A stretch of DNA of 64,000 nucleotides from an uncultured Allorhizobium sp. Its GTDB lineage: Bacteria; Pseudomonadota; Alphaproteobacteria; Rhizobiales; Rhizobiaceae. The position numbers were made by a program, and so were the translations under genes. Below, in pieces: positions 19,455 to 56,219 of the stretch. Each line of letters opens with the position of its first letter. Positions within the stretch are counted from its first letter, which is position 1. Below the pieces are notes generated by a model. It made no database searches. It saw only the letters and a program-made list of their open reading frames with translations, and was not told where the DNA came from. The stretch spans positions 2,247,001 to 2,311,000 of the forward strand of contig OY288189.1 of assembly GCA_958439205.1 (NCBI GenBank), written 5' to 3'.

Positions 19455-19784
19455 TCAGGGCTTGGAACGCTTCTGCTCCTCGACGAAGTGGCGCAAAACC
19501 GCATTGATCCGGGTCTGGTAGCCCTTGCCAGTCGCTTGGAAAAAATCGATGATGTCGGGATCGAGGCGGATGGAGATCGCCTTCTTTCTGTCCGGGATCA
19601 CCATCTTGGCCTTGGACCAGTCGATGTCCATGTGGTCCTTCCAGTCGGGATCGTCGCGCATGGCGCGCTCGATTTCCTCGTCGGTCATGGCATCGACGCG
19701 GGCCCAGTCGGTCTGGCTTTCACCGCGGGCGATCATGGCCTCGATATCTTCAATTGTATATCTGACGATATTTTCTTTGCTCAT
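19455..19784 (-). CDS. brnA: BrnA-family antitoxin
   Basis: A 109-residue antitoxin. An acidic N-terminal toxin-binding region (TIEDIEAMIARGESQTDW) is followed by a C-terminal ribbon-helix-helix (KKAISIRLDPDIIDFFQATGKGYQTRINAVLRHFV) that dimerises and binds DNA, which is the BrnA layout. I chose ATG at 19784, the MSKENIVRYT start. That start lies inside the end of brnT, giving a 35-bp overlap. The complex normally represses its own promoter. Confidence 0.88.
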   Translation of the reverse strand: MSKENIVRYTIEDIEAMIARGESQTDWARVDAMTDEEIERAMRDDPDWKDHMDIDWSKAKMVIPDRKKAISIRLDPDIIDFFQATGKGYQTRINAVLRHFVEEQKRSKP

Positions 19785-20040
19785 CTCTCCGTGCCGTCCT
19801 TGCGGAAATGATGCGGCATAGGTCATCACGCATGGTGAAGACGACCGCAATCAGTTTGAACGTGTCTGGGCAAATCGAGAGCGTTCTCAACTCGCCATTT
19901 CTGTACGACGCAATATCAAGCCGCGGACCGGTCCGAAGCGCATTTGCAGCATCGACAAAATCGATCCCGTGCTTCTGAACGTTGAGTCTGCGCTTGTTTT
20001 CGTCCCAGTCAAATTCTCTCAGTACCAAATCGCTTGTCAT
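19750..20040 (-). CDS. brnT: BrnT-family ribonuclease toxin
   Basis: A 96-residue RelE-fold toxin. FDWDENKRRLNVQKHGIDFVDAANAL and the C-terminal IISARTARRDEQRKYRQ are the family's conserved blocks, including the catalytic Lys/Glu/Arg residues of BrnT ribonucleases. It would inhibit translation by cutting RNA until BrnA neutralises it. It is first in the brnTA operon, inserted between the YqeY gene and dnaG, which are normally close neighbours in this family. Confidence 0.9.
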   Translation of the reverse strand: MTSDLVLREFDWDENKRRLNVQKHGIDFVDAANALRTGPRLDIASYRNGELRTLSICPDTFKLIAVVFTMRDDLCRIISARTARRDEQRKYRQIYN

Positions 20041-54384: not shown

Positions 54385-54729
54385 TTGCCACGCCAAAGGG
54401 CGCACCCTTGGCATCTGTGGCCGCTGCCGCTGACGCATGGCGAAAGGAGGATCGGCGAGGCAAAGGCGCCGCTGTTCTCATGTCAATAAGTGGTATGGTC
54501 ACTCGGTGTCTTGGCGTTCAAATTTCCGCGCATCTGCGATTTATGAAAAACAAAATTTGCAGCCGGAAATGGTAGGCTTGGAGGGCCTGCAGAATTCAAG
54601 TGATTTCAATCTGTTAAGTGCGCATGGGACATATTATACGTGTGAGCAAAATCAAGCGCTTAGCATTCGCGCTGTCCCACTTTTATGGACAGAACTCAAG
54701 GCGTTTTTCCGGTCCATGTGGAGGGTCGC
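54385..54729. other. Gene-free stretch before the HTH gene
   Basis: 345 bp, more AT-rich than average; short ORFs here have no coding character. It presumably holds the promoter of the HTH gene. Confidence 0.45.
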
Positions 54730-55326
54730 ATGAGTACCCGTCGACCATTCCGCGAAGTAAAGTTGCAGTGGTTCCAGCAACTGAGCTGTGACAAGGATCT
54801 TAGCGACAGCGCTCGATCGATAGCTCTTTACATCGTCACTACACACATGAACGGCCATACCGACAAGGCGTGGCCGTCCTATCAAACGATTGCCGACGCG
54901 ACCGGCAAAAGCGTCAAGACCATCCAGCGTGCGATCCGGGAGCTCGAGGACAAAGAGTGGTTCGAAGTCCGACTCGGGAATGGCATAGGGCACAACACAG
55001 AATATCGTCCCTCTGCGATGTCGATTCTACGAGCATCTGAGGCACGTGAAAAGACGGACAGAATTGTCACCCTTCGCCCAGGCGAAAGCGGTCAGATCCG
55101 TCCGCGAAGGCAGTCTGATATGTCCGGCGAAGGCGGTCAGATATGTCCACCGAATCCAGAGAAAGAAATAATATATAAACCTAACGCGCGCGAGGAGCGC
55201 TCGGCACTTGGCAAGGTGCAGCCTGCGGTGCCTTCAATTTTCGTGGCAGACACCAAAACCGAGCAGTTGCACCAATGGCAAAATGGCTGGGTTCTCGCGG
55301 TCTCGGAACACTCGATACGCTTTTAG
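54730..55326 (+). CDS. Helix-turn-helix replication-type protein, frameshifted near 55280
   Basis: Reads 198 residues from ATG 54730. The N-terminal winged HTH (about 1-105, KAWPSYQTIADATGKSVKTIQRAIRELEDKEWFEV) is HTH_36-like, as in phage and plasmid replication-initiation proteins. A hydrophilic linker (SGQIRPRRQSDMSGEGGQIC) follows. Near residue 183 the frame goes bad (NGWVLAVSEHSIRF), whereas one frame over the sequence continues as WLGSRGLGTLDTLLVRATANGKTGYLLPGHWPPAE and stops at 55433. One base seems to be missing from the AAAA run at 55280-55283. It is a likely mobile-element relic, or a sequence error. Confidence 0.75.
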   Translation: MSTRRPFREVKLQWFQQLSCDKDLSDSARSIALYIVTTHMNGHTDKAWPSYQTIADATGKSVKTIQRAIRELEDKEWFEVRLGNGIGHNTEYRPSAMSILRASEAREKTDRIVTLRPGESGQIRPRRQSDMSGEGGQICPPNPEKEIIYKPNAREERSALGKVQPAVPSIFVADTKTEQLHQWQNGWVLAVSEHSIRF

Positions 55327-55490
55327 TTCGCGCGACGGCAAACGGGAAAACAGGCTATCTGCTGCCGGGTCACTGGCCTCCTGCTGAATCGGGTCCGAAT
55401 TCAGGGAGCTGGACTAGTTTCTTCAGCCGCTGACGTGATGGAGCACCTGCGAGCCGCGAAGGGACCATCGATGCACAATCGAGAGAAAGC

Positions 55491-55522
55491 GAATTGAGAC
55501 CAATTCGGTCCCGTGCTATAGG
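55491..55522 (+). promoter_or_regulatory. higBA promoter with embedded operator
   Basis: TTGAGA (55494-55499), a 17-bp spacer and TATAGG (55517-55522) make a good sigma-70 promoter. The dyad GAATT-N6-AATTC (55491-55506) overlaps the -35 box, the natural place for HigA repression. The predicted transcript start falls on the higB ATG at about 55529. Confidence 0.65.
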
Positions 55523-55528
55523 TGCGCT

Positions 55529-55852
55529 ATGAGGATCATAGCCAGGCGCACCCTCCGTGCATATGTCGACCGGCTGGCTGGCGACAAGGGACAGCCAGCT
55601 GTGAAGGCTGCGCTTGATGCGTGGTTCGACGAAGTTAGCAAGGCGCAATGGACCAGTTCCGCCGACGTGCGGCGGCTTTATGCAGCTGCAAGCATCGTCA
55701 GCGCGGAACGGATCGTCTTCAACATCAAAGGCAACGATCATCGTTTGGTTGTCGCGGCAGATTTTGAAAAAGGCATCGTCTGGATCAAGTGGATCGGGAC
55801 GCACAAGGCATACGACAAGATCGACGTGAAGGAGATCGAACATGGCAGCTGA
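55529..55852 (+). CDS. higB: HigB-type mRNA interferase toxin
   Basis: A 107-residue RelE-fold toxin of the HigB group. MRIIARRTLRAYVDRL, then VKAALDAWFDEVSKAQW and the C-terminal VWIKWIGTHKAYDKIDV are the family's conserved blocks. It cuts mRNA on the ribosome unless bound by HigA. It precedes and overlaps the antitoxin gene by 11 bp, the usual higBA order. The promoter position suggests a leaderless or nearly leaderless mRNA. Confidence 0.93.
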   Translation: MRIIARRTLRAYVDRLAGDKGQPAVKAALDAWFDEVSKAQWTSSADVRRLYAAASIVSAERIVFNIKGNDHRLVVAADFEKGIVWIKWIGTHKAYDKIDVKEIEHGS

Positions 55853-56219
55853 TCTGAAGCCGATCCGATCAGAAGCGGATTACGACGAAGCTCTTGCCGA
55901 GGTCGAAATCTTGTGGGGAGCAAAAGCTGGCACCCCAGAGGGAGACCGGTTGGATATTCTGGCGACCCTGATCGACGCCTACGAAGCCAAGTTTTATCCC
56001 ATGGATCCCCCCGATCCGGTGGAAGCAATACGTTTTCGGATGGAGCAGCAAGGTTTGACCCGCAAGGATCTCGAACCGATGATTGGGCCGCGTAACCGTG
56101 TAGCAGATGTCCTAAACCGCAAGCGAAGCCTGTCGATCGACATGATCCGCAAACTTCACGCCCGATTGGGTATATCTGCAGAAGTCCTGATCAGGCCGAG
56201 TAGTGGCAAGGTCGCCTGA
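55842..56219 (+). CDS. higA: HigA-type antitoxin
   Basis: A 125-residue antitoxin. An N-terminal helical toxin-binding half (IRSEADYDEALAEVEILWGAKAGTPEGDRLDILATLIDAYE) is followed by a C-terminal XRE-type HTH (about 70-120, MEQQGLTRKDLEPMIGPRNRVADVLNRKRSLSIDMIRKL). It neutralises HigB and represses the operon. Confidence 0.93.
   Translation: MAADLKPIRSEADYDEALAEVEILWGAKAGTPEGDRLDILATLIDAYEAKFYPMDPPDPVEAIRFRMEQQGLTRKDLEPMIGPRNRVADVLNRKRSLSIDMIRKLHARLGISAEVLIRPSSGKVA

Follow-up and report, generated by a model that had tools for sequence, protein, structure and literature searches.

In the toxin-first hicAB operon of Escherichia coli, the transcript of the autoregulated promoter is, according to the accessible text of a review, truncated at the hicA ribosome-binding site and makes only HicB (PMC7167474), and in the likewise toxin-first toxTA operon of Haemophilus influenzae the reads from the antitoxin-repressed promoter P2 are described as starting about 30 bp inside toxT (excerpts of PMC6957337). 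In the review, antitoxin excess in reverse (toxin-first) toxin-antitoxin (TA) operons is attributed to additional antitoxin promoters (PMC7167474, same text). Leaderless TA messages are already known in other bacteria: in the available passages of two papers, the 88 leaderless transcripts of Methylosinus sporium are said to belong mainly to TA systems and regulators of the stress response (PMC12403871), and the same absence of a leader is proposed for three TA loci of Synechocystis (PMC4963859). The locus studied here is a higBA operon in the window, i.e. the whole analyzed stretch of 64,000 nucleotides (nt) from an uncultured Allorhizobium sp. (contig OY288189.1, positions 2,247,001 to 2,311,000). 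HigB toxins cleave mRNA on the ribosome. The best explanation of the promoter region of this operon, to which we assign a probability of about 0.66, is that a HigA-repressed promoter would start transcription at the AUG of higB and that translation of the resulting message would be biased towards the antitoxin.

The locus itself is an ordinary PF09907-type HigBA type II operon, in which higB (PF09907) is followed by higA (HTH_3) with an 11-nt overlap. Its toxin scores above the curated cut-off of the HigB_toxin profile, a helix-turn-helix (HTH) antitoxin lies directly downstream, and the promoter carries a conserved, covarying palindrome.

Promoter geometry at the higB start codon

A sequence-only reading of the window had proposed that TTGAGA-N17-TATAGG, followed after 6 nt by the ATG of higB, drives a leaderless toxin mRNA, and that GAATT-N6-AATTC is an operator lying over the -35 box. 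Direct reading placed both motifs exactly where they had been reported, ahead of the higB/higA pair; in the window sequence alone they are unremarkable, and it is the relatives that decide. The hexamers agree with the consensus at 9 of 12 positions, and the T at the last -10 position is absent. As a strict consensus scan requires this T, it omitted the site; extended back to position 54500, it found no promoter on the + strand upstream of higB and none inside the gene. The start codon (55529-55531) is an ATG beginning 6 nt after TATAGG, so a message starting there would open with the AUG expected of leaderless mRNAs.

The loci used for comparison are best-scoring ones and not random samples. 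The window's subfamily was represented by the best 80 of 247 relatives in the genome collection, two plasmid copies and the window itself, i.e. 83 loci with 74 distinct 60-nt upstream sequences. In these 74, the ATG lies 5-9 nt after the -10 hexamer (8 nt in 26, 6 nt in 22, 9 nt in 14, 7 nt in 10 and 5 nt in 2), which translates into predicted leaders of 0 to about 3 nt in the relatives and 0 nt in the window. In the start-site map of M. sporium, spacers are described as being mostly 17 nt long, with 6 nt separating the -10 hexamer from the start (available part of PMC12403871); applied to the window, this modal geometry would make the A of the higB start codon the first transcribed nucleotide.

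A wider set comprised PF09907 HigBs with starts fixed by profile alignment. There were 203 hits, of which 6 with an unaligned N-terminus were dropped, and the 197 kept were thinned to 117 by unaligned positional identity (<90%, a crude measure). The region from -150 to +40 around each start was scanned with a sigma-70 model weighted by hexamer frequencies, and a gene was classed as leaderless-type if the -10 hexamer of its best site ended 4-9 nt before the start. This analysis revealed 60 leaderless-type genes among the 117 (28 at exactly 6 nt and 16 at 7 nt) vs 2 of 117 in each of the two dinucleotide shuffles which, together with 254 other open reading frames (ORFs) of the same loci, served as the background; 13 of these ORFs were leaderless-type. 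By unaligned identity to the window HigB, the share was 15/22 (at least 70%), 3/5 (40-70%) and 42/90 (below 40%). Once relatives are compared, the geometry of the higBA promoter, as read from sequence, is far above chance, and the leaderless higB message is upheld as a prediction by this geometry and its spacing. In the window, the best site of the weighted scan from -150 to +40 was the leaderless one, weaker promoters being scored no further than -150. Folding of the 5' end of the higB mRNA was unremarkable (z-score 1.22), and its minimum-energy structure leaves the first 12 nt unpaired.

A conserved palindrome as the probable HigA operator

GAATT-N6-AATTC was found in only 4 of the 83 loci, including the window (3 of its 82 relatives, L002-L004). 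A perfect 5-bp inverted repeat with a gap of 0-10 nt arises in 31% of shuffled 52-nt upstream slices, so this palindrome is not significant by itself. Another palindrome, GAGACC-N5-GGTCYC, with two 6-bp arms 5 bp apart, extends from the G of the -35 TTG to 4 nt before the -10 hexamer. With the best register following TTG, CTG, TTA or ATG chosen separately for each sequence, at least five of six arm positions matched in 73 of the 74 distinct upstream sequences (26 perfect and 47 with five; the remaining one had four). In 74/74, no 6-5-6 repeat elsewhere in the 60 nt surpassed it, while registers shifted by 1-6 bp either way (12 registers) gave 0/74 each.

In the window this palindrome reads GAGACC-AATTC-GGTCCC, and the AATTC arm of the repeat proposed earlier is its centre. 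The conserved palindrome is probably, on comparative grounds, the operator of HigA. The proposal of an operator over the -35 box thus survives in part: the palindrome overlaps the last four bases of that box, but it lies mainly in the spacer, and the GAATT repeat is not conserved. Although that repeat is present at the -35 box, its rarity, the 31% chance rate and the near-universal GAGACC-type palindrome make its service as the HigA operator, a matter independent of the leader question, scarcely credible.

The arms vary between relatives and change jointly (GAGACC/GGTCTC, GATCCC/GGGATC, GCGCCC/GGGCGC and GATACC/GGTATC). Half-site positions were paired in 395 of 444 cases, whereas 2000 permutations of the right arms, a control that ignores relatedness, gave 336 on average and never more than 357; the second arm pair is the weakest (paired in 27/74). 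Several members of other groups have the palindrome shifted downstream onto the -10 hexamer, yet this hexamer keeps its distance of 6-7 nt from the ATG; examples are the plasmid copies L232 (Salmonella IncX4) and L234 (Xanthomonas citri).

The link to HigA was examined in the 197 unthinned members. A callable higA and, within 50 nt, a palindrome of the GG[GT] type matching at five or more of six arm positions were present in 155; of those left out, 31 lacked such a palindrome, 10 lacked higA and 1 had asymmetric arms. An aspartate (D) in the recognition helix occurred with A.T at operator position 4 in 71 cases and a glutamate (E) with C.G in 82, together 153 of 155. The two exceptions carry T and Q, and in both the called higA segment resembles a wrong frame. 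On a tree of 80 representatives, from which rows with neither D nor E had been removed beforehand, there were 0 mismatches. The association was not significant by a sign test (p 0.5), with 2 independent pairs on supported branches and 7 changes on the best tree; with only two such pairs, shared descent could explain much of it. The pairing of helix and operator can be read as a specificity code and used to predict possible cross-regulation among antitoxins. Residues preceding the D or E also look class-specific (RVYE with nGTCCC and RASE with nTTCCC), though L181, among others, departs from this pattern.

Translation signals and the proposed mechanism

A core Shine-Dalgarno (SD) 4-mer was present upstream of 12 of the 60 leaderless-type higB genes vs 8.8 in shuffled sequences (standard deviation 2.6), and upstream of 50 of the 57 matching higA genes vs 26.3 (standard deviation 3.5). 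By a looser measure (at least 4 nt of AAGGAGGTGATC), 92 of 102 higA genes have a site. With a leaderless higB and a strong SD sequence at higA, each transcript should give little toxin and much antitoxin.

In the mechanism that we propose, HigA, alone or with HigB, would bind GAGACC-N5-GGTCCC between the -35 and the extended -10 elements and block RNA polymerase. On relief of repression, the polymerase would start at the A of the toxin ATG from the single recognisable promoter, producing a message leaderless for HigB and with a strong SD sequence only for HigA. Each transcript would then yield little toxin and much antitoxin, and HigA would outrun HigB. Toxin-first operons are without gene order as a means of antitoxin excess, for which a transcript start at the toxin AUG would substitute. 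The palindrome, its link to HigA, the promoter geometry, the lack of a family-wide SD excess at higB and the SD sequence at higA are established by comparison; from them we infer the actual 5' end of the higBA transcript, repression by HigA and the translation ratio.

Other toxin and antitoxin families

For the other families the 30 best loci of each whole-genome search were taken. Leaderless-type starts were found in 32 of 55 PF05015 HigBs, i.e. 19/27 in the class of genome G650 (taken as Gammaproteobacteria) and 13/28 in the window's own class (taken as Alphaproteobacteria, both classes inferred from named relatives), and in 12 of 25 BrnT toxins, with a mode of 6 nt in both families. Among antitoxins, the numbers were 0/29 for PhdYefM and 1/29 for ParD, the best site lying 18-44 nt ahead of the start in 24 and 22 cases, respectively. 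Gene order was checked in the PF09907 set only, in which 102 of the 117 representatives have a called higA-like ORF; for the PF05015, BrnT, PhdYefM and ParD loci we assume the usual habit of these families.

These counts suggest a rule for this phylum, which we consider slightly more probable than its opposite. Toxin-first type II operons of at least three toxin families (PF09907 HigB, PF05015 HigB and BrnT) would tend to start transcription at the toxin AUG, leaving the toxin leaderless and the antitoxin SD-driven, antitoxin-first operons (ParD and PhdYefM) would have normal leaders, and leaderlessness would replace gene order. If this is true, a toxin message starting at its own AUG gives antitoxin bias from one promoter and accounts for the sharp spacing of 6-7 nt that three toxin families have in common. 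The layout, shared by many relatives, may account for antitoxin excess in toxin-first operons. Such a contrast in leaders between toxin-first and antitoxin-first operons was not found stated in the literature searched, which was mainly open-access text, and may be in print elsewhere.

The window's own genome (G000) contains, besides this higB, 6 BrnT, 4 ParD and 1 PF05015 matches. One BrnT-type toxin ORF lies in the window at 19750-20040 on the - strand (PF04365 match at 19780-20007), and the ORF that follows it (19455-19850) may be its antitoxin. Reading of the sequence upstream of this BrnT ORF assigned no clear promoter.

Weighing of alternative explanations

Several observations weigh against a promoter that starts at the higB AUG and favours the antitoxin. 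As many as 57 of the 117 HigBs failed to score as leaderless-type, and on the HigB tree this character switches state 35 times, although some of the non-scoring genes look leaderless by eye despite low scores. The higB of E. coli K-12, a true PF09907 member (78.9 bits), was tried as a leaderless example and rejected, as its best site ends 31 nt upstream, making it leadered. A leadered variant also occurs on the E. coli plasmid pLH50-c-C (L230), which has its -10 hexamer 24 nt from the ATG, an AAGGA and a similar palindrome, and a native SD sequence before the toxin gene graT is mentioned in the accessible text of a paper on GraTA of Pseudomonas putida (PMC6393540). The HicA toxins gave 1/17 leaderless-type genes (many of their start calls look poor and gene order was taken unchecked), and hence belonging to a sometimes toxin-first toxin family is not sufficient for this geometry. 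The looser SD measure, with the 3' end of the motif counted, gives 24 of 60 leaderless-type higBs, a number partly inflated by the GTGAT of the extended -10 element. Moreover, SD-like strings overlap the -10 element in the window's subclade: the core 4-mer is present in 47 of the 58 nnnACC-class upstream sequences, and AGGTG in 12. These 58 are closely related, yet AGG replaces better -10 bases in them, and there may be selection in this subclade for an SD sequence used by longer transcripts.

This last point leads to the strongest alternative, which we regard as possible but unlikely. As in hicAB P2, the autoregulated start at the toxin AUG would merely remove the ribosome site of the toxin, and most HigB would come from less frequent transcripts, either longer or read-through, that contain AGGTG. 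The hicAB and toxTA precedents described above speak for it, as do the SD-like strings of the subclade and the AGGTG of the window, which lies upstream of the predicted start and is well placed for a longer mRNA. On the other hand, this model would not require a mode as sharp as the 6-7 nt seen in three toxin families, and such exactness favours, as far as sequence comparison goes, a functional leaderless AUG over mere loss of the ribosome site. Leaderless-type higBs lack a clear SD excess, so a longer message would usually lack an SD sequence too, and the scans, strict back to 54500 and for weaker sites to -150, found no longer promoter.

That the message is an ordinary leadered one from an upstream promoter, with TATAGGTG as its SD region and not a -10 element, is highly unlikely. 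TATAGG is indeed a weak -10 hexamer, its last position not being T, and AGGTG fits the anti-SD tail of 16S rRNA, but the palindrome, the TTG and the TG-n-TA are locked together in the 74 distinct upstream sequences, as in a promoter and not as in an SD sequence. In addition, TATAAT or TATTAT stands at a distance of 6-7 nt in the distant members L148, L168, L176 and L232, whose SD matches do not exceed 3 nt. The sequence-only reading had also coupled translation of the leaderless toxin message to the availability of 70S/61S ribosomes under stress, a model that a 2016 review, in its accessible text, still presents (PMC4803016). Nothing in the higBA sequence bears on such coupling, the claim gained no support, and we hold it to be most improbable; antitoxin-biased translation is likelier, given the strong SD sequence of higA. 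Leaderless translation as such has been reported (accessible parts of PMC3898074 and PMC8630535), which leaves room for weaker, stress-related variants.

Features of the locus and its surroundings

The features of the locus are compiled in Table 1. A gene for an HTH_36 protein of 213 amino acids (54685-55326, + strand) lies directly upstream of higBA. The HigB toxin family overlaps the anti-phage system PD-Lambda-2, whose components A and, in part, B are matched in the window at 55529-56219: HigB matches component A of the PADLOC collection (6.8e-36), and HigA covers only positions 3-122, the first third, of the 402-position profile of component B and is not a full-length B. PD-Lambda-2 has a third component.

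Table 1. Features of the higBA locus in window coordinates.
Feature	Position	Strand	Remarks
higB	55529..55852	+	107 amino acids; PF09907 HigB_toxin, E 5.2e-29, 100.8 bits vs curated cut-off 27
higA	55842..56219	+	125 amino acids; HTH_3 antitoxin, 29.4 bits vs cut-off 23; recognition helix ..PRNRVADVL..
-35 hexamer TTGAGA	55494..55499	+	direct reading; TTG here in 73/74 distinct upstream sequences including the window
Spacer, 17 nt	55500..55516	+	direct reading
TG of extended -10	55514..55515	+	TG in 64/74 distinct upstream sequences
-10 hexamer TATAGG	55517..55522	+	TATA in 42/74; sixth base G in 43/74, T in 18
Probable HigA operator GAGACC-N5-GGTCCC	55496..55512	+	conserved; 5/6 arm positions paired in the window; from sequence comparison
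GAATT (55491-55495) and AATTC (55502-55506), extendable to CGAATT-N6-AATTCG	55490..55507		not conserved, probably incidental
Predicted transcription start, A of higB ATG	55529	+	from 6-nt discriminator and spacing in relatives; uncertainty about 1-2 nt
AGGTG, SD-like	55520..55524	+	overlaps -10; untranscribed if the start is at 55529
SD sequence of higA, AAGGAGAT	55829..55836	+	5 nt ahead of the higA ATG

Comparison with known systems

The higBA operon of E. coli K-12 shares the HigB_toxin domain, the downstream HigA and the toxin-first order with the window locus; it differs in its leadered best promoter (31 nt upstream) and in having a different repeat upstream. In comparisons with solved relatives (PDB 5ifg and 5ycl), the window HigA is related to the HigA chains (1e-8) and HigB weakly to the HigB chains (0.007). 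The partner of Pseudomonas aeruginosa HigA presumably belongs to another HigB family. In the HigA-promoter complex of that species, HigA dimers likewise sit on a promoter palindrome, and Thr40, Asp43 and Arg49 contact bases via water, whereas the palindromes are of the TTAAC-GTTAA type and two dimers are bound (accessible text of PMC6987408).

Leaderless starts in other TA loci provide a second comparison. In Mycobacterium tuberculosis, 37 TA gene pairs have a primary start site and 32 of them lack a leader, but so does a quarter of the genes, and in the available portion of the paper no dependence on gene order is stated (PMC3898074). In paaR2-paaA2-parE2 of E. coli O157:H7, the first gene of the TA operon starts at its translation start by 5' rapid amplification of cDNA ends (excerpts of PMC8630535); there the leaderless gene is the regulator and not the toxin. 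The closest documented parallels of the window higBA are, by analogy, hicAB and toxTA, in which an antitoxin-repressed promoter (P2 in both) likewise lies at or in the start region of the toxin in a toxin-first operon. The P2 transcripts of both are said to make the antitoxin only, whereas in the window higBA the predicted 5' end is the toxin AUG itself.
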